This document shows positions 26,464 to 48,126 of a stretch of 64,000 bases of DNA, in pieces (the stretch's first letter is position 1; each line of letters starts with the position of its first letter). The notes under the pieces are model-generated. The model worked only from the letters and a program-made list of their open reading frames with translations, did no database searches and was not told the DNA's origin. The stretch comes from Terriglobus saanensis SP1PR4 (GTDB lineage Bacteria; Acidobacteriota; Terriglobia; Terriglobales; Acidobacteriaceae): positions 3,348,001 to 3,412,000 of the forward strand of contig NC_014963.1 of assembly GCF_000179915.2 (NCBI RefSeq), given 5' to 3'. The position numbers were made by a program, and so were the translations under genes.

Positions 26464-26561
26464 TGATAGCGTCTCACCCAACGCACACGCTGCACAAACC
26501 GCGTGTGTCTGCCTCACACTCTCTTCAACGACCCCTGAGAATTTGTATCGGCGGAGGAACA

Positions 26562-30904: not shown

Positions 30905-31705
30905 CTAATCAACGCTAAGATAATTTCCAATTTCCGCTGCAGCTTCCTCATCGAGATAGAGCACCGTGCCAGGGTGTTCCCGCAGGATCGTTGCAGGGCA
31001 TGCAGTAGAAATAGGCTCTTCCAGTGTGCGTCGAACGATGCTGGCCTTACGGCTTCCGGGAACGGAGACAATAAGCGTTGGAACGCGAAGGATCGTCGGA
31101 ATCGTGATGGAGATAGCCTCGGCTGGCACCTCGGCCGGGTTGGCAAACCATCCCTCCGCAGTCTGCTGTATGCGGCACGTGGCATCGAGCGGGACAACTT
31201 TAACGTCGAGCGGATCGCTGAAGTCCGCGACACCGGGATCGTTAAAGGCAAGATGCCCGTTTTCACCGATGCCGACCATGCAGATCTGCGGCGGTATAGA
31301 GCGCATCTCCTTCGCATAGGTAGCACAGACTTCCTCGAGATTAGCTGCGGTGCCATCGATCTCAAAGAACTTTTGCATGCCGACTTTTTGGGTTAGATTT
31401 CGGCGAAGATATCCGCGAAACGACGCAGGATGTTCCATGGGAAGGCCTACGTACTCATCCATATGAAAGCCCACGACCTGCTGCCAGGGTAGACCTTCTA
31501 TTCTGGTAAGAGCGTCAAGGGTCGCGAGTTGCGAGGCACCCGTCGCGAAGATAACAGATACGATTTTTCCCACTTTACCGAACCGGAGAATTTCTTTCGC
31601 AGTTGCCAAGGCCGCGGCTGCTCCCATGGCTTCCCGCGTGGGATGAACTTCCACTCTCATCTCTCCGACTTTGCCATAGCGCACTTGTGTGGCTTCGATA
31701 CTCAT
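30905..31705 (-). CDS. NagB-like protein (glucosamine-6-phosphate deaminase family)
   Basis: Cytoplasmic protein of 266 residues in the NagB/6-phosphogluconolactonase superfamily, in which NagB turns glucosamine 6-phosphate into fructose 6-phosphate and ammonia. The base D83 lies in HMDEYVGLP and the catalytic histidine H151 in GENGHLAFNDP. Differences from Escherichia coli NagB are visible: the NDGHIAFNEP block reads ENGHLAFNDP, so D141 is Asn (also found in some true NagBs) and E148 is Asp, and the segment holding R172 has no matching arginine (RIQQTAEGWF). The phosphate loop TGASQ is still close to the norm. No nagA or kinase gene is nearby. AGAGGAG lies ten bases before the ATG. Co-transcribed with the downstream MFS carrier. 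A deaminase or isomerase on a different sugar is possible. Confidence 0.85.
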   Translation of the reverse strand: MSIEATQVRYGKVGEMRVEVHPTREAMGAAAALATAKEILRFGKVGKIVSVIFATGASQLATLDALTRIEGLPWQQVVGFHMDEYVGLPMEHPASFRGYLRRNLTQKVGMQKFFEIDGTAANLEEVCATYAKEMRSIPPQICMVGIGENGHLAFNDPGVADFSDPLDVKVVPLDATCRIQQTAEGWFANPAEVPAEAISITIPTILRVPTLIVSVPGSRKASIVRRTLEEPISTACPATILREHPGTVLYLDEEAAAEIGNYLSVD

Positions 31706-32010
31706 TCTTTAGAAGCTCCTCTGAGGATTGCTGCATGGGTGGCCAGTTCTAACGGAGACGAAAGATTTCTTGAAAGCGAGGCATGGCTGCCTGCGTCACA
31801 ACAGCCAGATCCTTTGAATACGTGACTCGCGCACAGACTGTCAATCGTTTTCACGTATTCGAGAAATTTTTCTCATCGAATCGGCCGCAGAGCCAACATA
31901 ATGACAGATCCTTGCCATAAAAGTGCGATTATTCATTTAGATGGCGAATTTTGCGGAGTATATTTGTACACGGTTTACGAGAAAATATTGCTCCAAAGTG
32001 TGGTTTCAAA
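31706..32010. other. Divergent region before NagB-like and LacI genes
   Basis: No gene is supported. The region holds the palindrome at 31861-31874 and a box ACGGTTTACG (31970-31979) that resembles ACGGTTCACG at 43381-43390. A frame extension of the LacI gene from a TTG at 31951 runs through the right end but has no ribosome binding site. Confidence 0.5.
31861..31874. promoter_or_regulatory. Palindrome GAGAAATTTTTCTC
   Basis: A perfect 14-base palindrome with partly matching outer arms (ATTCG and CGAAT) about 150 bases from both divergent start codons. It could be an operator for the adjacent regulator or a short hairpin; it differs from the TGCAACCGCTTGCA sites. Confidence 0.35.
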
Positions 32011-33108
32011 ATGACGAAGCAAGCAAAGACGAAGATTGGATTGCGTGAGATTGCGGCGCTGTCCAAGGTGAGCGTGGCCTCGGTTTCTCGCGTTTTAAAT
32101 GGAAACAGCCGCGTCGATCCGGCAATCCGGAAGGTGGTTTTAAACGCGGCCGCCAAGCTGGAAGTCGATCTCTCGAAGAGAAACAAGGCCAAGACGCTGG
32201 CTTTTCTCCTGAGCAATCGGGTCATGCTCCATCCGTTTCATTCGCGCGTTCTGAGTGGCGCCGAGGCCCACTGCGCCGCAAACGGCTGGGACATGGTGTT
32301 TCTTTCGTTCAACTACTCACCGAATACTCCGCCGGAGGAGTTGCACCTGCCAAAGGTGGTGCAGCGACGCGACGTGGTGCGTGCGCTGATTCTGGCGGGA
32401 ACAAATTCGGCCAATCTTACCGATCTTCTGGACCAGAAGGGCATTCCGTACGTGGCACTGGGCAATAACATCCTGAACGCGTCGGAAGATTCGAAGAGCG
32501 ATCTGATCTTCTCCGACGACACGCAGGGTGGAGAGGACATGACGCGCTATCTGATCGGTCTGGGACATCGTCATATCTGGTTTGTCGGGAACCTGCGGCT
32601 TCCATGGTTCGCGCGTTGCTTTGAAGGACATAAGCGCGCCATGGAGCAGGCCGGGCTGGAGGTCCGTTACACGACGACGGACTCAGAAGATGACAAGGAA
32701 GTTGGGTATCTCGGGACCAAATCCTTGTTGTCACGCGGCGAACCCGTGACGGCCATCTTTGCCGGAAACGATCCGACGGCGCACGGTGCGTATCGCGCGC
32801 TGCGGGATAGTGGACGACGCATTCCGGAGGACGTCAGCGTCGCCGGATGCGATGACACAATCGGCGCGTGGCTTTATCCGGGACTGACAACCCTGCGCGA
32901 GTTTCCCGAACAACTCGGCAAGCAAATGGTGGAGCTCGTATTGAACCGCATCGCACAACCGGGACTGGAGCCTCAGCGCGTTGTCCTTCCCACGGAACTG
33001 ATACGACGAGAGTCCTGCGGCCCCATTGCTGCAACTACCGGAGCAAGCGTTAAGCTGCCTGAAGCAACCAAGCGTACCGAACGTCATGCCGTAAGTGCAC
33101 GCAAGTAA
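32011..33108 (+). CDS. LacI family transcriptional regulator
   Basis: DNA-binding repressor of 365 residues from the ATG at 32011, which starts just before the helix-turn-helix as in other members; a TTG at 31951 would add 20 residues that do not look like protein. The helix-turn-helix is LREIAALSKVSVASVSRVLN (about residues 11-30), followed by the hinge and a periplasmic-binding-protein-like effector domain with the usual blocks (LSGAEAHCAANGWDMVF, GHRHIWFVG, AIFAGNDPTAHGAYRAL, EDVSVAGCDDT). It should respond to a sugar or sugar acid. It is divergent from the NagB-like/MFS pair and upstream of a second MFS gene on its own strand (58 bases), so these are likely targets. It may or may not be the protein that binds the TGCAACCGCTTGCA sites. 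Confidence 0.92.
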   Translation: MTKQAKTKIGLREIAALSKVSVASVSRVLNGNSRVDPAIRKVVLNAAAKLEVDLSKRNKAKTLAFLLSNRVMLHPFHSRVLSGAEAHCAANGWDMVFLSFNYSPNTPPEELHLPKVVQRRDVVRALILAGTNSANLTDLLDQKGIPYVALGNNILNASEDSKSDLIFSDDTQGGEDMTRYLIGLGHRHIWFVGNLRLPWFARCFEGHKRAMEQAGLEVRYTTTDSEDDKEVGYLGTKSLLSRGEPVTAIFAGNDPTAHGAYRALRDSGRRIPEDVSVAGCDDTIGAWLYPGLTTLREFPEQLGKQMVELVLNRIAQPGLEPQRVVLPTELIRRESCGPIAATTGASVKLPEATKRTERHAVSARK

Positions 33109-33165
33109 AAGTCTGCTTCGGGGCGCGAATGCTTCTCGATATCCTTGTCCTCAGAAAGTTGCTGC

Positions 33166-34419
33166 ATGACGAAGCCTGCATCTGCTGGAATCTTTTATGG
33201 ATGGTGGATTGTAGGAGCGGCTTTCCTTAATCTATTTTGCGCCGTAGGCATTATTTACTACGGTTTCCCCGTCTTTTATCCCGCGTTCGTCACCTCTCTT
33301 GGATTTACGCGGGCAGAGGTGACACAGGGATTTTTGCTGGGTTTCCTTGTGATCGGTCTTCCCTTCGGACTTCTTGCCGGGGTGCTGATCGACAGGATCG
33401 GCACGCGTTGGGTGATTCTTTCCGGCGTAGGGCTGGTGGGACTTCCACTCATCGGAATGGGTTTCATGAACCATTTCTGGCAGTACCAGCTCCTGTGCAT
33501 CTTTGAGGTGATCGGGTACACACTGGCAGGACCGATTGCGAACCAGGTGCTGGTCGCGCACTGGTTTCATACGCAGCGCGGGCGGGCTATGGGATATGCC
33601 TACCTGGGATTGGGTCTGGGAGGCGCGGTTTCTCCACCCACGATGAACTGGCTTCTTCATCACTTTGGCTGGCGGCATGCGCTGGAGATGGTGGGTGCGA
33701 CGATTCTTCTTGTGCTGTTTCCAACCGGTTTCTGGGTAACCCACTCGAAGCCTGCAGACCTTGGGCTCTATCCCGATGGGGCACTCGTCCCTGTGCCGCG
33801 GGAGGTCCACACGGCGGCGGACCTTTCCACCCTCGGCGCAATGAAAGTGGCGTTCAAGGACAAAAACTTCTGGCTGCTCGTTGCAGGATCCGCACTCGTC
33901 ATCGGAGCCTTGAATGCCGTGATCCAGCACTTCATCTTCTTCCTGATAAGCCGCGGGTACACTTCCGCGTCCGCATCGAGATATCTATCGATGCTTCTGA
34001 TTGCGAGTCTTGGAGGGCGCGTGGTGGTTGGGTATATCGCCGATCGCTTCAAGCGAAAGAACACCATGGCCGGGTTTTACTTTCTGCTGGGCGCTGCAAT
34101 TCCACTGCTCTATCTCGCACACCAACCATTGATTGCCGCAACTTTTGCCTTACTCTTCGGCTTCTCCATGGGAGCGGACTACATGTTGATTCCCCTGGTC
34201 ACGGCCGAGTGTTTCGGCGTCGCTTCGCTGGGAAAGATCCTGGCGCTCGTCATCATGGGATATTCGATTGGCCAATGGATCGGGCCATGGGTAGCAGGGC
34301 GTATCTTCGACGCACACCACAGCTACGATCCGGCATGGAAGGTAATGTCGATTGCCGCGCTGCTGGGATCTGTGGCGATCTATAGCATCTCAAAGAAACC
34401 CGTCGTAATAGCCGAGTAG
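33166..34419 (+). CDS. MFS transporter, monocarboxylate/oxalate-formate antiporter-like
   Basis: Inner-membrane carrier of 417 residues with 12 predicted helices. The start GIFYGWWIVGAAFLN is characteristic of the monocarboxylate-porter/OxlT-like branch, and the loop 2-3 motif reads GVLIDRIGTRWV. The second half begins at FKDKNFWLLV and has GYIADRFKRKN in the equivalent loop. The ATG at 33166 is preceded by AGAAAG; the TTG at 33145 is less likely. It follows the LacI gene on the same strand at 58 bases and converges with the PQQ dehydrogenase gene, with only two bases between stop codons. Substrates in this branch are small organic anions. It might take up the acid products made by the exported oxidation operon, but this is inferred from position. 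Confidence 0.88.
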   Translation: MTKPASAGIFYGWWIVGAAFLNLFCAVGIIYYGFPVFYPAFVTSLGFTRAEVTQGFLLGFLVIGLPFGLLAGVLIDRIGTRWVILSGVGLVGLPLIGMGFMNHFWQYQLLCIFEVIGYTLAGPIANQVLVAHWFHTQRGRAMGYAYLGLGLGGAVSPPTMNWLLHHFGWRHALEMVGATILLVLFPTGFWVTHSKPADLGLYPDGALVPVPREVHTAADLSTLGAMKVAFKDKNFWLLVAGSALVIGALNAVIQHFIFFLISRGYTSASASRYLSMLLIASLGGRVVVGYIADRFKRKNTMAGFYFLLGAAIPLLYLAHQPLIAATFALLFGFSMGADYMLIPLVTAECFGVASLGKILALVIMGYSIGQWIGPWVAGRIFDAHHSYDPAWKVMSIAALLGSVAIYSISKKPVVIAE

Positions 34420-34421: not shown

Positions 34422-36038
34422 CTAGTTTTCCGGCAGACTCCACACATAGAGCATGTCGCCCACGCCTGTGGCGACATACTGCTTTCCATCCAGCATGTAT
34501 GTCATGGGCCCGTTGCTCATGTTCGCTCCTCCGCGCGTGTGCCACAACAGGCCGCCATTGGTTGGATCGAGTGCGAGCAGGTTGCCAAGCGCATCGCCGG
34601 TGAAGAGAACATGGCCTGCCGTAGTGAGAATCCCGGAAGAGTTGACACCCGCGCCACTGGCCCGCGTCCACTGCACTTTGCCAGTCTGGTAATCGATCGC
34701 AATCAGCTCCGAGTTGGTCGTAAGGCCAATGGAAGCTCCTCCCTGATGGTCTTCGGGTTCATTGTTCTCATCAAGAACCAGGTGCCAGTAGCTGTATCCT
34801 TTCACCGCAGAGACATAAAGCATCTTCGTCTCCGGATCGAAGCTCGGAGGCATCCAGCTGGTGGCACCGATGAAGGTTTGATGAACCAGTGCACCGTCTA
34901 ACTGGGGCTCCTTCATTGGATCGGGGATGGGTCTTCCCTTCGAATCAATGCCTGTGGTCCAGTTGCTGGGCACGAAGGGACTGGTCAGGAGGTTCTCACC
35001 CGTCTGCCTGTCGAGCAGGAAGAAGAATCCGTTGCGACTAGCCTGCGCGAGCATCTTGCGCGGCTTGCCTTTGAAGTCTCCGTCGAAGAGGATGGTCGTT
35101 TCTACGGCGTCGAAGTCGTGTGTATCGTGCGGTGAGACCTGGAAATACCAGACGATCGCGCCTGTATCTGGATTGATCGCGAGGATACAACTGGTGAAGA
35201 GGTTATCGCCCTTTCTAGCAAGACCGTCCAGCACTGGATGAGGATTGCCTGTTCCCACATAAACGAGATTGAGCGCGGCATCGTACGTTCCACTAAGCCA
35301 CATGGGACCACCACCGTGGCTCATACTCTTTGCGTCGGGCCAAGTCTCCGATCCGGGCGCGCCGGGTTTTGGAAGGCTCTCTGTCCGCCACTGTTTTGCG
35401 CCTGTCTCCCAGTCGCGCGATTCAAGAAAGTGTGGGACGTTAGCCTGGTCGCCCGAGGTCCCGATGAGTACGTGGCCCTTCACCACGATAGGTGCAGCAC
35501 TGAGGTAATAACCGAACGTCTTGTCTGCAATCTCAACGTCCCAGAGCTGTTTGCCATCTTTAGCGCGGATGCATACGAGATGCGCGTCGGGCGTTCCGAA
35601 GTAAAGCCTGTCTTGATAGAAGGCGACTCCACGTTGGCCGATATGATTTCCGACGGAGATGCGCGTGTGCTGCCAGACCTGCTGGCCCGAGCGCGCATCG
35701 ATGGCCCACACCTTATCGGGTGCGGTGAGATACATAATTCCGTTGACGACCAAAGGCGTGCCTTTGAGCTGAGGCCCATGCGTGGGAAAAGCCCAGGCGA
35801 GCGTTAACGACTTCACGTTCTCGCGATGGATCTGCTTGAGCGTACTGAAGCGTCTGCCGGAGATATCCCCGTTATAAGTTGTCCACTCTTCACCAACGGA
35901 CGGGGTGGAGTTTGTCGCGACGCTCGCAGCGACAGGGCGCTTGATTGTCTTTTGGGCGGATAGACAAGGTATGCCTCCAGCTAACAGAACTCCCGCTCCG
36001 ATGAACTTACTGGAGCGTTTCGAGATACGCAAAAACAT
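34422..36038 (-). CDS. Exported PQQ-dependent dehydrogenase (quinoprotein)
   Basis: Periplasmic quinoprotein dehydrogenase with the eight-bladed propeller fold, oxidising an alcohol or sugar and passing electrons to a cytochrome c. The ATG at 36038 follows AAGGAA and opens a signal peptide ending near PCLSAQ; the product has 538 residues. Propeller landmarks are the opening EEWTTYNGDISGRRFSTLKQI, repeated tryptophan-docking-like blocks (GTPDAHLVCIRAKDGKQLWDVEI, ALDPTNGGLLWHT) and the closing GTPLVVNGIMYLTAPDKVWAID-type strands. It lacks the adjacent cysteine pair found in classical methanol and ethanol dehydrogenases, and it has no fused heme domain. Its start overlaps the end of the diheme cytochrome c gene by 32 bases, so the cytochrome is the likely electron acceptor. 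Substrate unknown; PQQ synthesis genes are not in this window. Confidence 0.87.
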   Translation of the reverse strand: MFLRISKRSSKFIGAGVLLAGGIPCLSAQKTIKRPVAASVATNSTPSVGEEWTTYNGDISGRRFSTLKQIHRENVKSLTLAWAFPTHGPQLKGTPLVVNGIMYLTAPDKVWAIDARSGQQVWQHTRISVGNHIGQRGVAFYQDRLYFGTPDAHLVCIRAKDGKQLWDVEIADKTFGYYLSAAPIVVKGHVLIGTSGDQANVPHFLESRDWETGAKQWRTESLPKPGAPGSETWPDAKSMSHGGGPMWLSGTYDAALNLVYVGTGNPHPVLDGLARKGDNLFTSCILAINPDTGAIVWYFQVSPHDTHDFDAVETTILFDGDFKGKPRKMLAQASRNGFFFLLDRQTGENLLTSPFVPSNWTTGIDSKGRPIPDPMKEPQLDGALVHQTFIGATSWMPPSFDPETKMLYVSAVKGYSYWHLVLDENNEPEDHQGGASIGLTTNSELIAIDYQTGKVQWTRASGAGVNSSGILTTAGHVLFTGDALGNLLALDPTNGGLLWHTRGGANMSNGPMTYMLDGKQYVATGVGDMLYVWSLPEN

Positions 36039-36843
36039 TATGAATTTCCTTGTCTTGATACCGTGCCAGAAGATCGCGATGAGCATGCAAGGGATCGTCG
36101 ACCATCACCTTGACTCCGTGTTTGAGCGTCCAGGATCGATATGTTCCGGTGTTGTCCATGAGCGATACGTAGAACGGATCCAGGTGGAGTAACTCTCCGT
36201 GAACCTTCTCTCCCGAAGGGAATACTACGGTCGCGGTTTCATGCGCCAGCGTCGGATAGAGCAACCTGCCTTCGAGTTCAAGTGCCGAATATTTCTTAGC
36301 AACTCCCTTGAGGTCTCCTGATTCAGAATGGCAGTCTGCGCACCTACCCTCGCCGGAGAAGAACGTCTTCCCTTCTTCGACACTTCCGGTAAGCAGGCGC
36401 TTGGCCGCAAGACCGCGCGCCGGACCGCTGGCGGAAGCGCGATTGTCGTACGCGGTGACGATCGCATGCAGAAAGGCGCTAAGGTCAGCGATCTGTCCGT
36501 CCGTCAAATTCGGAAAGGGAGGCATGCCCTTGGCGATCCGTCCGTTACGCACGACATCGCCGATGAGATTTCCATTTTCATCATGCCGGACGAGAGAGGA
36601 GTCGATGAGGCTTGGACCGGATGCACCCTTCCCCTCCGATCCATGACACATCGCACAGGTGGCCTTGTACTGTGCCATACCTCGCGCTGCATCTTCCTGG
36701 ACAAGCGGATTTGTCTTGGGAGCACGTCGTTCCTGCGCTATGTTTGCGACCGACCCCAAAAGACAGAGGCCAAGACAAAGACCCCATACGGCCAGACGAT
36801 GCCGCATTGTGCGCGACTTTTGAAAAAATCCTGCGAGATTCAT
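36007..36843 (-). CDS. Exported diheme cytochrome c
   Basis: Periplasmic electron carrier of 278 residues with two covalent heme sites: CAMCH at 63-67 with the probable Met ligand M107 in GMPPFPNL, and CADCH at 168-172. The first domain looks like a class I cytochrome c (cbb3 subunit type). The second heme motif is followed by a beta-rich tail (GRLLYPTLAHETATVVFPSGEKVHG) that resembles domains found in PQQ-linked cytochromes of Acidobacteriota. A signal peptide with hydrophobic core follows MRHRLAVWG, so M13 (36807) is a possible alternative start to the ATG at 36843. It lies 23 bases after the Gfo/Idh/MocA gene and overlaps the PQQ dehydrogenase gene, giving a coupled dehydrogenase-cytochrome pair. 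Confidence 0.92.
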   Translation of the reverse strand: MNLAGFFQKSRTMRHRLAVWGLCLGLCLLGSVANIAQERRAPKTNPLVQEDAARGMAQYKATCAMCHGSEGKGASGPSLIDSSLVRHDENGNLIGDVVRNGRIAKGMPPFPNLTDGQIADLSAFLHAIVTAYDNRASASGPARGLAAKRLLTGSVEEGKTFFSGEGRCADCHSESGDLKGVAKKYSALELEGRLLYPTLAHETATVVFPSGEKVHGELLHLDPFYVSLMDNTGTYRSWTLKHGVKVMVDDPLHAHRDLLARYQDKEIHNVFAYLETLQ

Positions 36844-36866
36844 GACACTCCAAAAAGCGCGGTTGA

Positions 36867-38273
36867 TCAGACTAGCTCGGGAACGACGAACGGCCTTCGG
36901 TAGCCTCGATCAGCGCCGCGCAGCAAGCGGTTCGCTTCCTCATCGTTCTGCACAAGTTGAGTTTGAGGATCGAAGTCGAGCGTTCTGCCAAGACGATACG
37001 ATACGTTTGCAAGGTGCGCCAAACCTGAGGAAATGTGACCATCTTCGATAGGTGCGCGGAGATCTTCCTTCTTACGGCTGACGACACAGGCGATGAAGTT
37101 AGCGAAGTGGTCTTCAGGGCCATCGGCTTTGGATGGGCCCGGCTTCTGATCGCGCCCGAAGAAGGTTTGGTAGCCTGCGACGTTGTCGATCGCGAGATAG
37201 CCCTTAGGTCCATAGAAAATATTTCCCACAGAGTTATAACTTCCCTCCAGTGGTCCCATTCCACCTACGGCCGTTTCTCCCACCACTGCGTTTGCGGGGC
37301 GCGCCGCGCCAATACCTGCTTCGTGATTCGTCATCCAGTGGCGAACCTCGAATTCCAACAGGACGGGCTTCTTGTTGAGACGTTTGTATTCAAAGGCGCA
37401 GTTGAGAGTATTCGGCGTCTCCTGGTCGTCATCAAACATGACGTGCCCACCGATAGCGGAGATCTTGTCAGGAAAGCCAAGACCAAGTCCCCAGCGTGCA
37501 ACATCCAACTGATGAATACCCTGGTTTCCAAGATCGCCGTTGCCGTAGTTCCAGAACCAGTGCCAGTTGTAGTGGAAGTGGTTTTTAGTGAACGGTAGAG
37601 AGGGTGCAGGCCCTGTCCACAGGTCGTAATCGACGCCAGGAGGGACGGGAGAGATCGGCGTGCGACCAATGGTATCTCGCCATTTAAAACAGAGGCCGCG
37701 CGAGAGATAGACGTCGCCTAGAATCTGCTGGTCGCGGATTTTTTGTATGGCGTCCATCACTCCTACATTAGAGCGAGTCTGCGTTCCATGCTGGACGATG
37801 CGATTGTATTTTGCGGCCGCCTTGACCATCTGGCCGCCCTCCCACAAGTTATGCGAGCAGGGCTTTTCAACATAGACATCCTTACCAGCCTGGCATGCCC
37901 AGATCATCATCAGGGCGTGCCAGTGGTGTGGAGTAGCAATGGAAATAGCATCGATAGATTTATCTTCGAGTAACTTACGAATATCTTTGTAAGTCTTTGG
38001 TTGGTGTCCCAGCTTTCGCACTTTGGCTGCATGTTCGGTAAGTACGGTATCGTCGATATCGCAAAGGGCAGCGATTTCCACGTTCGGCAGCGCAGCATAG
38101 CCTTTGATATGGTTTTCGCCTCGTGCGCGCAGACCAACAATGGCGACACGTACGCGATCGTTTGCACCGACACGTTTTTGTGCGGAGCCCCACTTACCAA
38201 AACCTTCTGCAGCAGCGACTGCGGCCACTGACTTTGCGCCTGTCTTAAGAAACTCTCGTCTGCTCTCGTCCAT
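36867..38273 (-). CDS. Tat-exported Gfo/Idh/MocA family oxidoreductase
   Basis: Sugar oxidoreductase of 468 residues with a twin-arginine signal (SRREFLKTGAKSVAAVAAA), so the folded, nucleotide-bound enzyme should act in the periplasm. The Rossmann loop reads GLRARG (47-52), the family lysine lies in EKP (136-138), and the catalytic pair is in NQGIHQLDVARWGLGLG. GGGAGG lies nine bases before the ATG. It shares the overall plan of the enzyme at 26562 (same WDLWxGPAP and YNWHWxxxYGxG blocks), so the two are paralogs. It is the third gene of a five-gene operon: amidohydrolase, DUF6807, this enzyme, diheme cytochrome c, PQQ dehydrogenase. Family knowledge suggests oxidation or epimerisation of a sugar hydroxyl; how its tightly bound cofactor would be recycled in the periplasm is an open question. 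Confidence 0.92.
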   Translation of the reverse strand: MDESRREFLKTGAKSVAAVAAAEGFGKWGSAQKRVGANDRVRVAIVGLRARGENHIKGYAALPNVEIAALCDIDDTVLTEHAAKVRKLGHQPKTYKDIRKLLEDKSIDAISIATPHHWHALMMIWACQAGKDVYVEKPCSHNLWEGGQMVKAAAKYNRIVQHGTQTRSNVGVMDAIQKIRDQQILGDVYLSRGLCFKWRDTIGRTPISPVPPGVDYDLWTGPAPSLPFTKNHFHYNWHWFWNYGNGDLGNQGIHQLDVARWGLGLGFPDKISAIGGHVMFDDDQETPNTLNCAFEYKRLNKKPVLLEFEVRHWMTNHEAGIGAARPANAVVGETAVGGMGPLEGSYNSVGNIFYGPKGYLAIDNVAGYQTFFGRDQKPGPSKADGPEDHFANFIACVVSRKKEDLRAPIEDGHISSGLAHLANVSYRLGRTLDFDPQTQLVQNDEEANRLLRGADRGYRRPFVVPELV

Positions 38274-38311
38274 CTCTGCTCACCTCCCAAAGTTGAATGT
38301 ACTTAGCGCAA

Positions 38312-39310
38312 TTACGGATGCTTGGAGTATTCGCCGTACTCTTCCGCGACCTTTGCCTGACGGGAATCACCTTCGTGGATAAAGACGCGATAACTGAAGG
38401 TGATGCTTTGCCCCGGAGGGATGGTGTAACTTCCATCCTGCTTTGGATCGTTGAGAAAGTAGGAGAGTCCGAAGACATTGGCTGCAAGGAGGCCGTATCC
38501 ACGCGCATGCCAGTAGGTGGGATGGCGGAAACTTTTAGGGCTGTCGAAGACGGCGATGCCCACCTTCTGTCCATCGATCGTTCCATCCACGTTTACCCAG
38601 TTTGCGCGCTTCCCCCAGACCTGGGCTTCTCCCTGGCCTCCCTCGGAGTTGGTCATGGTTCCGTTGGTAGCTTCGAGTTCGGGTGCCACGCGCACAGCGA
38701 AGGTGCCCTCTTTGGTGTCGCCGAACTTTACCGGCTTGTCGAGAGCATGAAGGACAAAGATGCAGTCGACCATGCGTGTCTCTTTACCGCCGCTGAAGGT
38801 GAAGCTTTGGTCTTCACGTGCAAAGGTCTTTCCGTCCGGACCCACGAGATCAAAGGAGGCACGGATGAGCCCGGAAGACGCGCCACTGCGGACCTCTTCC
38901 AGTTTGCGGAAGACCATCCGACCGAAGTTAGAAGGCGTTGTGGGCGGATAGTATTTCGAATACAGACCTTCGGCCCAGAAGTTATATCCGTTGATATCTC
39001 CATGTGCGAAGTAGAGTGGTCGTTGATGCGGCTCGAAGCCTCGGTCATGCTCGTGGCCCGCAGGAATGGTCTCCATCACGGGATAGCCGCGTGTCACTAC
39101 CACTCCATTCGCGGTGCGGAGCGGCTGCAGATAGGCCTTCGCAATCTTTGGATCGAAGTGATAAGTGGTGAAGAACTTTCCGCCGATCGTAACTTCCACG
39201 GCATTTCCCTGCTGCTTGAGCGTCACTCTCTCTGCGACGCTCTGGCCAGGAGAGCACAGGACGCCAATGGCGAGGAGCGGTATCGCAAAGCGAAGCAATC
39301 GAAATTTCAT
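38312..39310 (-). CDS. Exported DUF6807 (PmoA-like) protein
   Basis: A 332-residue protein of the family once labelled methane-oxygenase PmoA and now called DUF6807; it is not a methane monooxygenase subunit. The ATG at 39310 follows GAGAGGACC and opens a signal peptide cleaved near QSVA. Family blocks include FTTYHFDPKIAKAYLQPL, GHEHDRGFEPHQRPLYFAHGDINGYNFW and the C-terminal NDPKQDGSYTIPPGQSITFSYR. The histidine- and aspartate-rich middle block could bind a metal or sugar. Members are commonly found beside Gfo/Idh/MocA oxidoreductases, as here (38 bases downstream), which suggests a role in the same sugar pathway. No reaction is established to my knowledge, and none is assigned. Confidence 0.85.
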   Translation of the reverse strand: MKFRLLRFAIPLLAIGVLCSPGQSVAERVTLKQQGNAVEVTIGGKFFTTYHFDPKIAKAYLQPLRTANGVVVTRGYPVMETIPAGHEHDRGFEPHQRPLYFAHGDINGYNFWAEGLYSKYYPPTTPSNFGRMVFRKLEEVRSGASSGLIRASFDLVGPDGKTFAREDQSFTFSGGKETRMVDCIFVLHALDKPVKFGDTKEGTFAVRVAPELEATNGTMTNSEGGQGEAQVWGKRANWVNVDGTIDGQKVGIAVFDSPKSFRHPTYWHARGYGLLAANVFGLSYFLNDPKQDGSYTIPPGQSITFSYRVFIHEGDSRQAKVAEEYGEYSKHP

Positions 39311-39369
39311 GCACGGTCCTCTCAAACTAGGGTGTTCCACGATGCTTCTAAATCTGGATACAACAACTT

Positions 39370-40284
39370 TCAGCGGAGCACGTCTGCCGCGATGGCCTCT
39401 TTTTGCTGCTGCAGAATGCGCCACATGGTTCCGGAGAAGATCAGTGCCTGGTCAGACTCTGAGACATCGCAGGCCTTCAACATCGCGTGGTAACGAGAGA
39501 GCGATCCGTCAAACTCATTCAGATCTCCGCCGAAGACGTCGGAGGCGAAGAGCAGTTTGGTGAAGGCTCCAGGCCCACCGGAGGGAGTATGAGGACTGAC
39601 GACTCCGCTCCACCAGAAGATCGAGCGGAAGAAGCGATAGTCCTCCTGTTTCTTCAGAAGAGTTGTGCCGGAGGCGTCGAAGTACAGATTCGGATCCCAG
39701 CGTCCTATCTCCGCAGCTTCGGCATAATCGGGATTGCCGAGATGCGCACCGATGAGGATGAGTTTTGGCCAGCGGCGCGCAATCAGATCGAGACGCGTAA
39801 TCCGGCTTCGATCGAAGCTGACATCTTCTGCTACTTCGGGGTGCAGACGATTCACAATCCCCGTATGGAACAGAAGGATCATGTGATATTTGTTGGCGCG
39901 CTCGTAGATTGGCCAGTAGATGGGGTCGTCGTAGTTCTTGAGAGTCCTGGTGATTTCGCCGAGTCCGAGCATTCCGGCCAGGTGAAAGCGTTCCATCTGG
40001 TTCATGATGTCAGGGTCGTCGAGGTTCACATCGCCGAAACCCACAAAGCGATTGGGATGTGCCTGGATGAATTTGCTTGCCTCGGGCAGTCCTTTGGGCG
40101 TGATCAACAGTACCGCAAGGCCATCGGCCTGGTTGAGTTTTTCGAGTAGGGTGCCGAGAACGTTGGGTTCGCCGTTGTAATGAAAATGAACGTCGATCAA
40201 CTTCGGTGCAACCGTTTGAGCTCTCACGGACAAGGCGGCGAAGAGCGATAGCAGCAACATTGCCCGTCGACGTGTCGGTCGCAT
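39370..40284 (-). CDS. Exported amidohydrolase family 2 protein
   Basis: TIM-barrel metal-dependent hydrolase of the amidohydrolase_2 group (which includes lactonases and decarboxylases). The ATG at 40284 begins a signal peptide (RRRAMLLLSLFAALSVRAQ) and gives 304 residues; the frame stays open further back, but that part is only the shadow of the IclR gene. Metal ligand candidates are the HxH in DVHFHYNG, the histidine in LLFHTG, the histidine in IGAHLG and the aspartate in LLFASDVFGG. It is the promoter-proximal gene of the five-gene exported operon. A lactonase acting on a sugar lactone made by the downstream dehydrogenases would fit, as inference. It is divergent from the IclR regulator, with an inverted repeat between. 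Confidence 0.86.
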   Translation of the reverse strand: MRPTRRRAMLLLSLFAALSVRAQTVAPKLIDVHFHYNGEPNVLGTLLEKLNQADGLAVLLITPKGLPEASKFIQAHPNRFVGFGDVNLDDPDIMNQMERFHLAGMLGLGEITRTLKNYDDPIYWPIYERANKYHMILLFHTGIVNRLHPEVAEDVSFDRSRITRLDLIARRWPKLILIGAHLGNPDYAEAAEIGRWDPNLYFDASGTTLLKKQEDYRFFRSIFWWSGVVSPHTPSGGPGAFTKLLFASDVFGGDLNEFDGSLSRYHAMLKACDVSESDQALIFSGTMWRILQQQKEAIAADVLR

Positions 40285-40458: not shown

Positions 40459-41256
40459 ATGCCTGCAAAAAATCACATCGAGCTTGTCGTCAAAACATTG
40501 GCCGTATTGGAGTCTCTTGCCACGAGTGAGCGCGGAAAGGCGTTGAAGGAGATTGCCGCCGATGTTGGACTTGGAAAGAGCACTGTTTTTCGAATTCTCT
40601 TTACGCTGAAAGAAGCCGGATATGTTGAGCAGTATGCGGCCAATGGGAGCTATCGTCTGACGCTGAAGACCGGCGGTCTGGCGCGGCGTCACAGCGAGCG
40701 ACTTCGCCTGACGGATGTAGCTCGTCCTCACTTGATTCGTCTTCGGGACGACCTGGACGAGTCCGTTGCTCTGGCCGAGCGAAGAGCACAAGCGGTCGTT
40801 TTGATTGACGTTCTCGAAACCTCTCATCCGCTGCGTCTCTCTTTTCAGATCGGTGATGACTGCCCTATTCATGCGACGGCGCTGGGCAAGGCGGTGGCGG
40901 CATTCCTGTCGCCGGAGGAGCTTGCTTCTCTTCTAAAAAACTTTGCTCTACCTCAATACACAAATCGAACAAAGACCAAGGTATTGCAACTGAAGGCGGA
41001 ACTGGCGCGCACGAAGGTCAAAGGCTATTCGATCAATGATGAGGAGACTGTAACGGGCGCTCTGCTGGTCGGCGCCCCACTCTTCGACCGGAACCGTATT
41101 GTGTGTGGTGCACTAAGCGTGAACACGCCCACTGCACGGTGTTCAGAGAAACGAAGACAACAGTTGATCGCTGCGGTTGTGGAAGCGGGACAGCATATCT
41201 CCGGCGATCTTGCGGATGTCGGCTTCCTTCATCCCGTGACAAACTCCGGTAGCTAA
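40459..41256 (+). CDS. IclR family transcriptional regulator
   Basis: DNA-binding regulator of 265 residues. The N-terminal winged helix covers about residues 7-65 (VVKTLAVLESLATSERG, LKEIAADVGLGKSTVFRILFTL), followed by the GAF-like effector domain with the family blocks DDLDESVALAERR, HATALGKAVAAFL and GYSINDEETVTGALLVGAPLFD. IclR proteins respond to small acids, aromatic compounds or sugar acids. It is divergent from the exported oxidation operon at 34422-40284 and converges with the DapA-like gene. It may therefore control either or both. No clear ribosome binding site precedes the ATG at 40459. Confidence 0.93.
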   Translation: MPAKNHIELVVKTLAVLESLATSERGKALKEIAADVGLGKSTVFRILFTLKEAGYVEQYAANGSYRLTLKTGGLARRHSERLRLTDVARPHLIRLRDDLDESVALAERRAQAVVLIDVLETSHPLRLSFQIGDDCPIHATALGKAVAAFLSPEELASLLKNFALPQYTNRTKTKVLQLKAELARTKVKGYSINDEETVTGALLVGAPLFDRNRIVCGALSVNTPTARCSEKRRQQLIAAVVEAGQHISGDLADVGFLHPVTNSGS

Positions 41257-43530: not shown

Positions 43531-44535
43531 ATGTTCTCAGCAAAGACCTGCTCACAACAGACACGTTCTCTTCGCAAAGCATTTGTCCTTACAGCCGTTC
43601 TGCTGGCGTATGTTCGCTCCGACGCGGCGCACGCACAGGATTTGAAACTTGGCATTCTGGGAACAGACTCTTCGCATGCGGTGGAGTTCACACGGATTTT
43701 GAATGATCCCTCAGCCATGGACCACGTTGCAGGCGCGAAGATCGTGGTGGCCTACCGTGGTGGGAGTCCTACTCTTCCGTTCAGTCGCGACCGGATCGTG
43801 AAATTTACAGAAACTCTGCAGAAGACTTGGTCCATTCCTTTCGTGCCTTCGATGGTAGATCTGTGCACGCAAAGCGATGCCATTCTGGTGCTGAGTGTGG
43901 ACACGAGTGCACGCATGCGGGAACTCGGCGAGGCGGTAAAGTGCAAAAAGCCCATTTTTATCGATAAGCCCCTTGGGGGGACGCTGGCCGATGCGCTCCA
44001 GGTGGCTAAGTTTCTCGATGAGCAGCACATTCCCTGGTTCAGTACCTCTTCCTTGCGGTACGGCCACGAACAACGTCCGGCCAATGTTGTGGGCGCGGAA
44101 ACCTGGGGGCCCGGAAAGTACATCGAAGGGTTTCCCCTGGACCTGACCTACTACGGCATTCATTCGATTGAGTCGCTCTTCAGCATCATGGGGCCGGGCG
44201 TGCAACAGGTCGCACGTACCCGCGTAAAGGACACAGACGTGATCACCGCGATCTGGACAGATGGCCGCATGGGGACCGTTCGTCTGATTCACCCGGAATC
44301 GACCTATGGCGCCGTAATCTTTCGCGAAGGGGGACACGCCGAACCCAATAACAATCTCCAGGTTGGCTACGGCCCACTGGTGACGGAGATTGTGAAGTTT
44401 GCGCGGACCTCGAAGCCTCCTGTCTCAGAACGGGAAACGCTGGAGATCTTTGCCGTGATGGATGCGGCGCAGCAGAGTCTGCAAAAAAATGGCGCATTTG
44501 TACAAGTCGTTGTGCCGGAGATAAAGAAGCCTTAG
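43531..44535 (+). CDS. Exported, atypical Gfo/Idh/MocA-like oxidoreductase
   Basis: A 334-residue protein with the two-domain plan of the Gfo/Idh/MocA family, but with deviations. The nucleotide loop reads LGILGTDSSHA in place of the usual G-x-G-x-x-G, and the EKP motif is DKP (FIDKPLGGT). A possible active-site histidine is in YYGIHSIESLF. The ATG at 43531 follows AAAGGCGG and opens a Sec-type signal peptide (VLTAVLLAYVRSDAAHAQ), unlike the Tat signals on the other two Gfo/Idh/MocA proteins here; Sec export would send it out unfolded, without bound NAD. It could bind a different nucleotide or none. It is divergent from the SDR/DapA pair and about 100 bases before the SSS symporter gene, which has its own operator. 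Confidence 0.8.
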   Translation: MFSAKTCSQQTRSLRKAFVLTAVLLAYVRSDAAHAQDLKLGILGTDSSHAVEFTRILNDPSAMDHVAGAKIVVAYRGGSPTLPFSRDRIVKFTETLQKTWSIPFVPSMVDLCTQSDAILVLSVDTSARMRELGEAVKCKKPIFIDKPLGGTLADALQVAKFLDEQHIPWFSTSSLRYGHEQRPANVVGAETWGPGKYIEGFPLDLTYYGIHSIESLFSIMGPGVQQVARTRVKDTDVITAIWTDGRMGTVRLIHPESTYGAVIFREGGHAEPNNNLQVGYGPLVTEIVKFARTSKPPVSERETLEIFAVMDAAQQSLQKNGAFVQVVVPEIKKP

Positions 44536-44633: not shown

Positions 44634-46187
44634 ATGGGATCTTTAGCCTGGCTCGTACTGGGCGCTTACTTCGTCTTGATGATCGGTGTCGGTTACTGGG
44701 CCCGCAAAAAGGTCAAGACCGCCAGCGATTTCTTTACCGCAGGCGGCTCTATGCCGTGGTGGTTATCGGGTATCTCGCACCACATGTCCGGGTATAGCTC
44801 CGCCGTCTTTGTGGGATACGCGGCCCTGGCGTATACCTCGGGCATCACGGTTTATTTCTGGTGGGCGTGCTCCATCGCGCTTGCGCTGATCGCCGGTCTG
44901 GGGATCTTCCCTGCGAAGTGGGCGAGGATGCGGCAGCGACTAAACGTCATCTCCCCTCTCGAATATCTGAAGATCCGTTACAACCTGCCGACACAGCAGT
45001 TGCTGGGATGGAGCGGCGCTCTCCTTAAGATCTTCGACGTAGGTGCAAAGTGGAGCGCCTCGGCGATTCTTCTCCACGCCTTTGCAAACGTCCCCTTTTT
45101 CTGGGGAGTCGTTTTGACCGGTGGCGTTACGGTCGTGTACTCCGTAATGGGCGGCCTATGGGCCGATGCGTTGACCGACCTGAGCCAGTTCGTGATTCAA
45201 CTGGTTGCCGGTATCTCCATGCTGGTGGCCGTACTGCATCGTCTGGGCGGTGTGAGCTCGTTGTGGACGATGTGGAAGTATCTTCCCGCGAACCATGTAA
45301 AGCCATTCCATGGGGACTACACTGTGGCCTTCGCCATGACCTATTTCTTCGTGAATCTGCTTTCGTATAACGGCGGAAGCTGGAGCCTGGCGCAGCGATT
45401 CATTGCTTCCTCTACAGGAAAGGACGCTCGGAAGTCTTCCCTGCTTTCAGCGTCTCTTTACCTGGTGTGGCCGCCGGTGCTCTTCTTTCCGATGCTGGCT
45501 GCGCCGGTTATCTTTCCTCACTTACAGGATCCATCTGAATCCTATGCGTTGCTTACAAAGACGCTGTTGCCTTCGGGCTTGATCGGCCTTGTGCTCGCCG
45601 GGCTCTTTGCCCACACCATGGCGATGACCTCCTCCGATGCGAATGCGGTCTCCGCAGTCATCGTGCGCGACATCGTTCCAGTACTTCGCGGTGGAAGAGA
45701 CAAACTGAGAGACGCAACCCAGTTATTACTAGGCCGCGTCTCTACGTTCTGCTTCCTTGCACTCAGCATGATTCTGGCACTCTTTGCTTCACACTTCGGC
45801 GGAGTGATTGGGCTGGTGATTCTTTGGTACGGCGCACTGATTGGGCCCATCGCCATTCCGATGTTGCTGGGGCTGCTCATGCCCTTCCGGCGCAGCGGGC
45901 CCGCTGCGGCCATCGCATGCTGGGTAATGGGAGCGGCCACGTTCGGTCTGGCCAAGATCTTTCCACCGGCACAGTGGCTCGGCATGCCTTCTCGCTACGA
46001 TAACGCCCTCGCTGTAGGCGCTCCCATGCTCGCTTCATTCCTCACCTACGTAATCGTGGGCTACCTTGCACCGCTGCACAGCGCGAGTTCGATGTACTTC
46101 CTGCAGACACTGCAGGACGATATGCCCTCAACACCTCTTAAACCAACTCCCACAGAAAATATCAGCATAAAGAAAGTGAAAGCGTGA
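44634..46187 (+). CDS. Sodium:solute symporter (SSS family)
   Basis: Inner-membrane Na+-coupled carrier of 517 residues with about 13-14 membrane helices. It opens with AWLVLGAYFVLMIGVGYWARKK and TASDFFTAGGSMPWWLSG, the typical SSS beginning, and has the sodium-site helix block AGLFAHTMAMTSSDANAVSAVIVRDI, matching the conserved pattern of sugar-transporting members. The start at 44634 is preferred to 44595 because the latter lies inside an operator. It is followed, with a GTGA four-base overlap, by the NagB-like gene, so the carrier and the enzyme are translationally coupled: the symporter probably imports the sugar or derivative that the NagB-like protein handles. SSS carriers take up sialic acids, hexoses, myo-inositol and other solutes; which one applies here is unknown. 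Confidence 0.92.
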   Translation: MGSLAWLVLGAYFVLMIGVGYWARKKVKTASDFFTAGGSMPWWLSGISHHMSGYSSAVFVGYAALAYTSGITVYFWWACSIALALIAGLGIFPAKWARMRQRLNVISPLEYLKIRYNLPTQQLLGWSGALLKIFDVGAKWSASAILLHAFANVPFFWGVVLTGGVTVVYSVMGGLWADALTDLSQFVIQLVAGISMLVAVLHRLGGVSSLWTMWKYLPANHVKPFHGDYTVAFAMTYFFVNLLSYNGGSWSLAQRFIASSTGKDARKSSLLSASLYLVWPPVLFFPMLAAPVIFPHLQDPSESYALLTKTLLPSGLIGLVLAGLFAHTMAMTSSDANAVSAVIVRDIVPVLRGGRDKLRDATQLLLGRVSTFCFLALSMILALFASHFGGVIGLVILWYGALIGPIAIPMLLGLLMPFRRSGPAAAIACWVMGAATFGLAKIFPPAQWLGMPSRYDNALAVGAPMLASFLTYVIVGYLAPLHSASSMYFLQTLQDDMPSTPLKPTPTENISIKKVKA

Positions 46188-46957
46188 CGATCACCACCCC
46201 TGGATTACTGAAGACCTCTATGAATATTCGAATTGAACCAACGCGAGAGGCTCTGGGCAAAGCGGCCGCAACGGATATCGCTCAGGCAATCCGTGAAGAG
46301 CTCCTTTCCAAGCCAACGCTGAGAATGATCTTCGCCGCGGCCCCCAGCCAAAGCGAGATGTTGCATGAGCTCATCCGCCAGCCGGGCATCGACTGGCAGC
46401 GCATTTCGGCCTTCCACATGGATGAGTACATTGGCCTTCCCGAGCGCTCTCCTCAGAGCTTCGGCATGTGGCTGCGCGATGCCATCTTCGATCGCGTCCC
46501 TCTGGCCAACTATCATCTGATCGAACCGGGAAACAAGCCAGAAAAAGTCTGCGAAGATTACGCGCAAAAGCTTGCAGAAGGTCCTATCGATATCGTCTTG
46601 CTGGGTGTCGGCGCAAATGGACATCTTGCGTTCAACGATCCCCCTGCCGATCTGGACGACCCACTCTTCGTGAAGGTAGTGGACCTGGACGATGTTTGCC
46701 GTCAACAACAGGTCGACGATGAATGCTTCGCAACGTTCGAGGACGTACCCACAAAGGCGATCTCGCTCACGATACCGACTCTCTTGCGTGGAGAAAGACT
46801 GTTCTGCTGCGTTCCCGGATCGTTCAAAGCCAGGGCCGTACGCGATATGGTCCATGAGCCGGTCAGCGGGAATTGCCCTGCTACGGCGCTTCGTACGCAT
46901 CCTCGCTGCATGGTGTATCTGGATCCTGAGTCGAGCGCGGAACTTGAGCGCGAATAA
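46184..46957 (+). CDS. NagB-like protein, second paralog
   Basis: A 257-residue cytoplasmic protein paralogous to the one at 30905. The base D80 is in HMDEYIGLP and the histidine H147 in GANGHLAFNDP. It departs further from NagB: the phosphate-binding loop (TGG/TGAS type) reads AAAPSQ, the block around D141 is GANGH, E148 is Asp, and the R172 region reads RQQQVDDECF with no arginine at that place. The lysine in GSFKA, equivalent to K208, remains. These changes suggest that the ligand may not be a standard hexosamine 6-phosphate. It starts at a GTG overlapping the symporter stop (GTGA); an ATG at 46220 is an alternative. It ends before a long terminator hairpin. Controlled, with the symporter, by a LacI-type operator. 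Confidence 0.84.
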   Translation: MTITTPGLLKTSMNIRIEPTREALGKAAATDIAQAIREELLSKPTLRMIFAAAPSQSEMLHELIRQPGIDWQRISAFHMDEYIGLPERSPQSFGMWLRDAIFDRVPLANYHLIEPGNKPEKVCEDYAQKLAEGPIDIVLLGVGANGHLAFNDPPADLDDPLFVKVVDLDDVCRQQQVDDECFATFEDVPTKAISLTIPTLLRGERLFCCVPGSFKARAVRDMVHEPVSGNCPATALRTHPRCMVYLDPESSAELERE

Positions 46958-47035: not shown

Positions 47036-47959
47036 CTAGACGCTGGAGTATTTCTTGCAGAGCTGTTGAATTTGCGCGATCTGCGAGGGTACGCCTGCCT
47101 TGTTCAACTCTTCTCCCTCGTACGACATGTAGCCCTTGTACCCGGCATCGGCAAACATCTTCCAGACGCGATCCATGTCAATCAGCGAACCATCGTCAAA
47201 AGTATTCCGAATGTGGGTATGGCTGGCAAAGGGAACACATGCGGCAATTTGCGCATAGGAGTCCTGCGTAGGTGAAGGCGCGAAGTGCGAGATATCGATG
47301 TTAATGCCAGCATAGGGCGAGTTCACGCGGTGCATAATCTCCAGGCAGACGTCCGCGCTTTGCGAAACGCCAACGTGGTCTTCAAGACCAAGCGTGATGC
47401 CCTTCTTGCCTGAATAATCGCATGCGGACTTCATGGTATCGACGACCCATGTTGTGGCCTGCGCGAGGGTTGTGCCCGCGGGCTGCTTCCCTGCGAAGAC
47501 ACGCAAATGGGGCGCGCCGAGGCGGTCCGTCACATCGACCCACTTCTTAATCTGCGTGAGAACGTCGGCACGCTTCGCGGCATCGGCCTGGACCATGCTC
47601 GCGCCACATCCTGCGCCGGAAAAAGGCACGCCGTGTTTGTAGCCAAGATAGCGAAGGTTCTCGATGTATCCCGGCGCGGTGGACTTCATATAGTAGACCG
47701 TCATATCGACGCCATCGAGGCGCAACTCTACGGCCTTTTCAATAAAGGTTTCGAGCGTGAGAGAACCATTTTCGAACTCATGACGATAGGTGTAGGCGCA
47801 ACAACCGGAGAAGAGCCTGGGAGTCTTCGGTACGGAAGGATAGGAGGTGGCGGTTTGCGCCACAGCGGAAGGGGCTCCGACAAACTCCACACCTGCGCCG
47901 GCGAGCATACCTGCACCGACTGTCTTCAGAAACTGACGACGTGCCATTTGATTTTCCAT
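47036..47959 (-). CDS. Tat-exported TIM-barrel sugar isomerase/epimerase-like protein
   Basis: Xylose-isomerase-like TIM barrel (AP endonuclease family 2), 307 residues. The ATG at 47959 follows GGAGG and is followed by a twin-arginine signal (ARRQFLKTVGAGMLAGAGV), so the enzyme should be exported folded. Metal ligand candidates lie at the ends of the barrel strands in the usual order: glutamate in GLEDHVG, aspartate in INIDISHF, histidine in SHTHIRN and glutamate in YEGEE. Members epimerise or isomerise sugars or act on keto-sugars, and many are found beside Gfo/Idh/MocA oxidoreductases. It is divergent from a second TIM-barrel gene, with the best operator of the regulon between them. The upstream frame to 48064 crosses that operator and is not used. 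Confidence 0.88.
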   Translation of the reverse strand: MENQMARRQFLKTVGAGMLAGAGVEFVGAPSAVAQTATSYPSVPKTPRLFSGCCAYTYRHEFENGSLTLETFIEKAVELRLDGVDMTVYYMKSTAPGYIENLRYLGYKHGVPFSGAGCGASMVQADAAKRADVLTQIKKWVDVTDRLGAPHLRVFAGKQPAGTTLAQATTWVVDTMKSACDYSGKKGITLGLEDHVGVSQSADVCLEIMHRVNSPYAGINIDISHFAPSPTQDSYAQIAACVPFASHTHIRNTFDDGSLIDMDRVWKMFADAGYKGYMSYEGEELNKAGVPSQIAQIQQLCKKYSSV

Positions 47960-48054
47960 CTTTCCTCCGATGAGAACGACTCCGTGCTGCATGGATGTTT
48001 GCTGACGAAACAGCAAGAGAGAGCGGCGAGTCCCAAACATAACAAGTTCTGCCG

Positions 48055-48078: not shown

Positions 48079-48126
48079 TTCTCGCGTCAATCTCTGCAAC
48101 ACACCTTCACACGTCGGAGAACATCG

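Follow-up and report, generated by a model that had tools for sequence, protein, structure and literature searches.

A candidate two-module operon for periplasmic sugar oxidation in Terriglobus saanensis SP1PR4

What might be oxidized, and by which route, by an operon in which five consecutive genes encode an amidohydrolase, a DUF6807 protein, a Gfo/Idh/MocA oxidoreductase (hereafter Gfo/Idh), a diheme cytochrome c and a quinoprotein, all of them probably exported? The question is raised by a 64,000-nucleotide stretch of the acidobacterium Terriglobus saanensis SP1PR4 (contig NC_014963.1 of assembly GCF_000179915.2, positions 3,348,001 to 3,412,000 of the forward strand), here called the window, in which the five genes occupy positions 34,422 to 40,284. 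This five-gene operon, whose exact form was seen in T. saanensis alone among the genomes examined, combines modules of two already known types: module A, with the amidohydrolase, DUF6807 and Gfo/Idh genes, and module B, with the cytochrome and quinoprotein genes. We propose, as a reading that we consider on balance just probable, that the two modules form a periplasmic oxidative sugar-use operon with two separate oxidases and a sugar or glycoside as substrate.

Gene arrangement and predicted export

All five genes are on the minus strand. The first encodes an exported-type metalloenzyme of the Amidohydro_2 family (304 amino acids; 39370..40284), followed by an exported-type DUF6807 protein with a predicted galactose-mutarotase-like beta-supersandwich (332 amino acids; 38312..39310) and a Gfo/Idh protein with a twin-arginine translocation (Tat)-type motif and a distant relationship to BT2158 (468 amino acids; 36867..38273). 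Module B consists of an exported-type diheme cytochrome c (278 amino acids; 36007..36843) and an exported-type quinoprotein of acido-empty-quinoprotein group A, which has a D-x-D motif and lacks Cys-Cys (538 amino acids; 34422..36038). The open reading frames confirm the layout given in the original prediction, including the gene order, the intergenic gaps of 59, 38 and 23 bases, the 32-base overlap of the cytochrome and quinoprotein genes, a divergent gene for an IclR-type regulator and a convergent gene for a major facilitator superfamily (MFS) carrier. The IclR gene (40459..41256, plus strand; Pfam) starts 174 bases from the start of the amidohydrolase gene, and the MFS gene (33145..34419, plus strand; Pfam) ends 2 bases from the quinoprotein stop. 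The five family assignments (Amidohydro_2, DUF6807, Gfo/Idh/MocA, cytochrome c and pyrroloquinoline quinone [PQQ] repeat) also stand, all being over the Pfam cut-offs.

Export of all five products, likewise predicted before, is supported as a prediction by N-terminal hydropathy and motif reading, which is a crude test. The N-terminal maximum 12-residue hydropathy is strong, at 2.1 to 2.6, in the four products other than the Gfo/Idh protein. The hydrophobic stretch of the latter reaches 1.26, not stronger than in cytoplasmic neighbours, and is accompanied by the Tat-type motif SRREFLK, which reads SRRDFLK in the orthologues of two other genomes. Because two CXXCH heme motifs (CAMCH and CADCH) imply cytochrome assembly outside the cytoplasm, the cytochrome c is expected to be assembled there.

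Occurrence of the two modules in other genomes

The samples searched comprised 120 genomes of the order, 398 of the family, and 396 and 297 of the phylum; loci and genomes are referred to by L and G numbers, respectively. A locus with all five genes was not seen in the other genomes examined, and one conserved five-gene operon is therefore rejected. The combination of both module kinds nevertheless recurs, since three other genomes of the same genus (G039, G044 and G065) each contain a cytochrome/quinoprotein pair and a Gfo/Idh-DUF6807 pair within a single xylose-use cluster of 13-17 kb (L145 1841-14537, L146 4283-16990 and L147 1514-18417). The order in this cluster is cytochrome, quinoprotein, ThuA, sugar-isomerase-like protein, Gfo/Idh, ROK, XylB, XylA, an RR-motif Gfo/Idh and DUF6807; every called cluster gene is on one strand in L145 and L146, and three opposite-strand genes precede the last pair in L147. 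In L145, the copy that was scanned with Pfam and NCBIfam, the quinoprotein scores 744.3 bits with TIGR04528, XylB 530.3 bits (NCBIfam cut-off 380.25) and XylA 660.1 bits (cut-off 533.25). The cluster thus resembles the operon in its cytochrome, TIGR04528 quinoprotein, RR-motif Gfo/Idh and DUF6807 protein; it differs in the additional ThuA, sugar-isomerase-like, XylA, XylB and ROK genes, in the distance of its Gfo/Idh and DUF6807 proteins from those of the window, and in that no amidohydrolase match was found in L145 to L147. It points to sugar use, there of xylose. It also overturns the idea that the two modules are always apart outside T. saanensis. The co-occurrence of both kinds of pair in these three genomes, along with xylose isomerase and xylulokinase, supports the suggestion of a link between a cytochrome/quinoprotein pair and an exported Gfo/Idh plus DUF6807.

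Apart from this cluster, each module has its own distribution. The Gfo/Idh search of the 398 family genomes returned a match at E 1e-80 or better in 48, of which 17 (T. saanensis included) have copies of at least 58% identity and the rest of at most 42%. In another genus (G112, L035), genes for a LacI-type regulator, Gfo/Idh (77% identical), DUF6807 (62%) and amidohydrolase (73%) are found in the same order as in the window and without module B, and the Gfo/Idh (74%), DUF6807 (61%) and amidohydrolase (67%) genes of G229 (L091) share that order. DUF6807 and Gfo/Idh are also present in G203 (L090), so that Gfo/Idh adjoins DUF6807 in three other genomes, or four of the window's type with T. saanensis. 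A contig scan with two short patterns yielded eight loci, four of them at 45-66% identity; one of these four, L118, is on the same contig as L090. No cytochrome or quinoprotein match was found in the fetched stretches of the 16 other genomes with Gfo/Idh orthologues; among all loci fetched, L091, L093 to L095, L100, L102, L127, L140 and L142 are cut by contig ends, and L090, L103 and L104 by the bounds of the fetched stretch. Module A looks like a patchy block, because, at E 1e-150, none of the 18 further genomes of the genus yielded the Gfo/Idh orthologue.

A LacI-type regulator gene of the window (31951..33108, plus strand) most likely came with module A. Its counterpart in L035 is 75% identical and abuts the Gfo/Idh gene, and another in L092 (70%) is near two Gfo/Idh copies. 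Between LacI and Gfo/Idh stand the MFS, quinoprotein and cytochrome genes in the window and no gene in L035. A NagB-like (Glucosamine_iso) gene of the window (30905..31705, minus strand) likewise has counterparts in L035 (61%) and L092 (56%), no more than ~7 kb from Gfo/Idh.

The cytochrome/quinoprotein pair of module B is widespread in the order. The cytochrome (Cytochrom_C, 62.2 bits; cut-off 21.3) belongs to a family found in 46 of the 120 order genomes at E 1e-20, with up to ten matches per genome, and the quinoprotein family occurs in 55 of the 120 at E 1e-60, with up to at least 11 per genome when at most 12 candidates were scored in each. A quinoprotein gene is directly downstream on the same strand in 62 of the best 64 cytochrome matches, at a distance of -28 to 210 bases between the matched stretches. 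None of 11 cytochrome/quinoprotein loci of other genomes has an amidohydrolase, DUF6807 or window-type Gfo/Idh gene. Orthologues of the IclR protein (E 1e-50) are found in four of the 120 genomes (T. saanensis, G065, G033 and G055), in all four within ~5 kb of a cytochrome/quinoprotein pair, and the regulator most likely came with module B because all its orthologues are near such pairs. In L106, L108 and L109 IclR proteins 70, 77 and 75% identical accompany cytochrome, quinoprotein and MFS genes without module A; these loci also hold an outer-membrane-receptor-like gene and a class III aminotransferase gene (the latter by eye in L109), and L108 and L109 further hold enolase-superfamily and short-chain dehydrogenase/reductase (SDR) genes (scanned in L108, by eye in L109), which fit sugar-acid use. 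The MFS carrier is tied to module B as well: the closest cytochrome/quinoprotein pair (L105) has a 74% identical relative at a distance of ~2 kb, and a 61% identical one directly adjoins the pair in L106. The suggestion that the divergent and convergent genes serve the operon has thus been borne out as far as linkage of both to module B is concerned. A protein of ~610 amino acids with an export-like N-terminus is encoded beside IclR in L106 (16661-18481) and L109 (13884-15722), of which the L106 copy has no Pfam or NCBIfam match.

Protein families, cofactor and neighbouring genes

The quinoprotein scores 253.4 bits with Pfam PQQ (cut-off 26.7) and is a member of TIGR04528, acido-empty-quinoprotein group A (765.9 bits, cut-off 650, residues 49-535). 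Like other members in the order, it has a diheme cytochrome c as its partner; it differs in standing downstream of amidohydrolase, DUF6807 and Gfo/Idh genes, in a genome that also has pqqE. Searches for TIGR04528 or "empty quinoprotein" found nothing on the family in the papers searched, and a word find in PMC5900883 returned no mention of PQQ, quinoprotein, pyrroloquinoline, DUF1080 or Gfo. In PQQ alcohol dehydrogenases, a Cys-Cys pair lies near PQQ, and Glu, Asn and Asp are metal ligands. The protein was aligned with 6zcw, 1yiq, 6zcv, 1kb0 and 1kv9, of which 6zcw is the best PDB sequence match. Across 35 distinct stretches of the family, R136, N265, D308 (the catalytic-type Asp) and D310 are invariant, and the D-x-D motif (D308-x-D310) is present in every one. 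Relative to lanthanide-type PQQ alcohol dehydrogenases (PedH, 6zcw; XoxF), the catalytic Asp, the Asn and the extra Asp of D-x-D are kept, whereas Cys-Cys and the Glu at the aligned metal-ligand position are missing. Because an Asp stands one residue before the Glu position in 34 of the 35 stretches, the alignment at that position may be shifted. D-x-D has been described as a mark that an enzyme uses lanthanides, and ocean acidobacteria have been reported whose genomes hold many enzymes of this kind (PMC11996626).

The capacity to synthesize PQQ was scored with PqqE alone as its marker. T. saanensis has pqqE (498.3 bits, cut-off 381.35), with pqqB- and pqqC-like genes upstream by eye, and missing PQQ synthesis is thereby ruled out as a proof of an empty quinoprotein in this organism. 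Among the 120 order genomes, pqqE is over the cut-off in 31; 20 genomes have both pqqE and the quinoprotein, 11 have pqqE only and 35 the quinoprotein only (35 of 55 quinoprotein genomes, of which nine carry 6 to 11 copies), which is a loose association (Fisher p 0.021, among related genomes that are not independent). Soil bacteria with enzymes of this type but no PQQ synthesis have been proposed to import the cofactor (PMC10875860). The label of PQQ dehydrogenase given in the original prediction is uncertain: the genome has pqqE, but the protein belongs to a family named "empty" and scores 414 bits with TIGR03075 (PQQ methanol/ethanol dehydrogenase), below its cut-off of 480.05. The evidence is divided, and a working, possibly lanthanide-type quinoprotein appears more likely than an empty one. 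Since D-x-D and the catalytic-type Asp are invariant, the cofactor is most likely PQQ with a lanthanide or another metal.

The Gfo/Idh protein is over the gathering cut-offs of GFO_IDH_MocA PF01408 (67.6 bits, cut-off 24) and PF19051 (84.4 bits). Its nearest PDB relatives are 8tdf (E 3.5e-32) and 8tdh (E 1.6e-31), which we take to be BT2158-type enzymes, and its best NCBIfam model is NF058561 BT_2158_fam. Its alignment with the BT2158 type covers residues 37-359 and keeps the EKP lysine and the GxLxxxxxH region. It differs from this type in its far lower score and in its partners, which here are DUF6807 and an amidohydrolase and not DUF1080. According to PMC11300592, BT2158 acts in the periplasm as a glycoside 3-dehydrogenase and is required for growth on disaccharides; hydrolysis of the 3-keto product in related pathways is known or proposed to be carried out by a DUF1080 protein (PMC9007349). 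A 3-keto route for module A would be an analogy and not a finding.

DUF6807 is listed as of unknown function in Pfam, and the literature mention found by name is only in passing. The product (PF14100, 251.8 bits; cut-off 27) was modelled with AlphaFold2 from a 29-sequence alignment at a predicted local distance difference test (pLDDT) score of 88.8. The model has Z scores of 15 to 18 to beta-supersandwich proteins, mostly carbohydrate enzymes among the 50 matches listed. Galactose mutarotases, with Z 17.8 (3mwx) and 17.6 (4bze) over 239-242 residues at a root-mean-square deviation of 3.5 to 3.7, are tied with other supersandwich proteins, the top match being 7vqo (Z 18.1). The predicted likeness to galactose mutarotase GalM is by fold alone, at ~10% identity, and the DUF6807 profile found no mutarotase among PDB sequences, only a chance match (E 1.2). 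Seven charged residues invariant in the alignment (R74, D89, R179, D182, D198, R207 and D256) would fit an active or sugar-binding site. Of 14 loci with more distant DUF6807 copies (L036 to L049, including a second copy in the T. saanensis genome), 12 have Gfo/Idh directly upstream; these 12 pairs are mutually orthologous and 71-99 and 59-97% identical to the L145 pair. An Amidohydro_2 gene is directly 3' of a 45% identical DUF6807 gene in L121, and in the distant locus L131 a DUF6807 gene and a 44% identical Gfo/Idh gene are near a glucose-methanol-choline (GMC) oxidoreductase gene. In G022, four DUF6807 genes stand close together on one strand (L041 10213-16919), with no Gfo/Idh match in the stretch.

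The amidohydrolase (Amidohydro_2 PF04909, 50.2 bits; cut-off 26.4) is rare, being found in six of 297 phylum genomes at E 1e-15, T. saanensis included. H33, H35, H140, H181 and D249, which are of the metal-ligand type HxH, H, H, D, are invariant in nine aligned sequences. Its model is a TIM barrel (pLDDT 84.2) that best matches the uncharacterised structures 3cjp (Z 22.6) and 3irs (Z 21.3), then decarboxylases (Z at most 19.5) and then lactonase-like hydrolases (Z at most 18.2). A lactonase-like step, as had been suggested, is possible, but the resemblance of the fold to lactonase-like hydrolases is not closer than that to decarboxylases. Similar-looking proteins of 456 amino acids without a Pfam match are encoded near the closest cytochrome/quinoprotein pair (L105 15562-16932) and near a distant amidohydrolase homologue (L139 6187-7557), each followed by an SDR-type gene (by eye in L139).

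Other genes of the region include one beyond IclR that is dihydrodipicolinate-synthase-like by eye and has no Pfam or NCBIfam match, followed by an epimerase-type gene on the minus strand. Two more Gfo/Idh-like genes recognised by eye lie within 8 kb on either side of the operon (26463-27881 and 43531-44535); their products have export-type N-termini, one with a Tat-type motif, and that of 43531-44535 has no Pfam or NCBIfam match. The region is flanked by two NagB-like genes, the one named above and another at 46184-46957, whose products score 129.1 and 127.9 bits, respectively, far under the nagB cut-off of 236.9. A HGSNAT_cat gene is near the L108 quinoprotein gene, and similar-looking genes occur in L106 (no Pfam match) and L109 (by eye). 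The NagB-like and HGSNAT_cat-type genes near the modules are a hint of amino sugars. A divergent pair of xylose-isomerase-like TIM-barrel genes with RR-type N-termini is found in the window at 47036-48064 and 48073-49059, and this family also stands beside Gfo/Idh orthologues in L097 and L101 and, by eye, in L096 and L104. Consensus scans gave one promoter-like site against 3.3 expected and six terminator-like sites against 6.9 expected, neither above chance. A foreign island is unsupported by base composition, the guanine-plus-cytosine fraction in the 30-50 kb part of the window being 0.54 to 0.57.

Proposed pathway and its alternatives

We propose that the exported, nucleotide-bound Gfo/Idh would oxidize a ring hydroxyl of a sugar or glycoside, at C3 by analogy with BT2158, and that the mutarotase-fold DUF6807 protein may bind, isomerise or cleave the same sugar ring. 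The amidohydrolase could then hydrolyse a later lactone- or amide-like product. A product of the aldose or alcohol type, or a parallel substrate, would be oxidized by the quinoprotein, with electrons passing to the diheme cytochrome and from there to the respiratory chain; the MFS carrier may import the resulting acid, and IclR may sense it. No route is known to us by which electrons could pass from a nucleotide-bound Gfo/Idh to a quinoprotein, and we therefore favour two separate oxidations. The analysis shows gene content and order, family membership, the separate and joint occurrence of the modules, the IclR linkage, predicted folds and active-site residues; a single transcript, export, substrates, reactions, the path of the electrons and the quinoprotein's cofactor are the parts of this proposal that we infer.

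Several observations weigh against such a joint pathway. No locus examined outside T. saanensis SP1PR4 has all five genes, and 13 of the 16 other genomes with Gfo/Idh orthologues have no DUF6807 or amidohydrolase match in the fetched stretch. In the xylose-use clusters, Gfo/Idh is 25-26% and DUF6807 31-33% identical to the window's proteins; the three clusters amount to about one further case, given their mutual identity (94-99% between L145 and L146 and 80-95% for L147), and Gfo/Idh-DUF6807 pairs orthologous to the cluster's stand without the cluster in 11 other loci. The 12 distant Gfo/Idh-DUF6807 pairs, being orthologous, also amount to about one case, and DUF6807 proteins 38 to 55% identical have no adjacent Gfo/Idh match of the window's type in L119 and L127 to L130. 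Two of the best 64 cytochromes have no quinoprotein listed downstream, and in two of the three other IclR loci the MFS carriers are only 36% identical. The Gfo/Idh protein is not a member of BT_2158_fam, with 150.9 bits against a cut-off of 750, and no DUF1080 hydrolase, the partner in the 3-keto pathway, was found among the 14 window proteins scanned with Pfam. The quinoprotein bears the NCBI family label "empty", has no counterpart of the Cys-Cys of 6zcw, 1kb0 and 1kv9 (nor has any of the 35 family stretches), and aligns a Gln, at a position variable across the family, with the Ca-ligand Glu. The export call, finally, was drawn from the N-terminal sequences.

The separate distributions could also mean that two unrelated catabolic operons were set head to tail by rearrangement and share a strand and perhaps a promoter while acting on different substrates, with no joint pathway. 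We regard this as unlikely, although each module does occur alone, each has its own regulator type (LacI with A, IclR with B), and module A is patchy in the genus. The gap between the Gfo/Idh and cytochrome genes is only 23 bases, with all five genes on one strand, and a second coincidence would be needed to explain the clusters of three other genomes, which hold a pair of each kind. Within module A, a BT2158-like 3-keto-glycoside pathway, with DUF6807 in place of DUF1080 in opening the 3-keto-glycoside, is rather doubtful. It would agree with 8tdf and 8tdh as the closest solved relatives of Gfo/Idh, with a DUF6807 fold common among carbohydrate enzymes, with the adjacency of DUF6807 and Gfo/Idh in the four window-type genomes and in the 12 of 14 loci of another type, with the xylose-isomerase-like TIM barrels beside several Gfo/Idh orthologues, and with the L131 locus near a GMC oxidoreductase. 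It is opposed by the distance of Gfo/Idh from the BT2158 family cut-off, by the occurrence of the DUF6807 fold in non-enzymes such as an NDH subunit, and by the DUF6807 genes of L119 and L127 to L130.

A different objection concerns module B, where the quinoprotein may be truly cofactor-free and, rather than a dehydrogenase, be a partner of the diheme cytochrome with a structural or binding role. We consider this improbable. The strong TIGR04528 score, the shortfall with the PQQ alcohol dehydrogenase family, the many copies in genomes without pqqE, the missing Cys-Cys and the variable Ca-ligand position would all agree with an empty protein, but an empty pocket would hardly be expected to keep Arg136, Asn265, Asp308 and Asp310 invariant in all 35 stretches, T. 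saanensis itself has pqqE and, by eye, pqqB- and pqqC-like genes, and uptake by non-synthesisers has been proposed (PMC10875860).

Returning to the two-module sugar-use operon with separate oxidases, we tentatively go one step further, to a joint claim that we hold with low confidence: that DUF6807 is a carbohydrate enzyme of mutarotase fold working with exported Gfo/Idh on oxidized sugars, and that the "empty" acidobacterial quinoproteins are lanthanide-type enzymes using PQQ that is either made or scavenged. If true, the operon and the xylose-use cluster of sister species would be periplasmic pathways with two chemically different oxidases, and testable roles would follow for DUF6807 and the "acido-empty" quinoproteins, poorly understood families that are common in soil acidobacteria. 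The PQQ and metal content of the "acido-empty" quinoproteins bears on the extent of lanthanide-dependent sugar and alcohol oxidation in soils.

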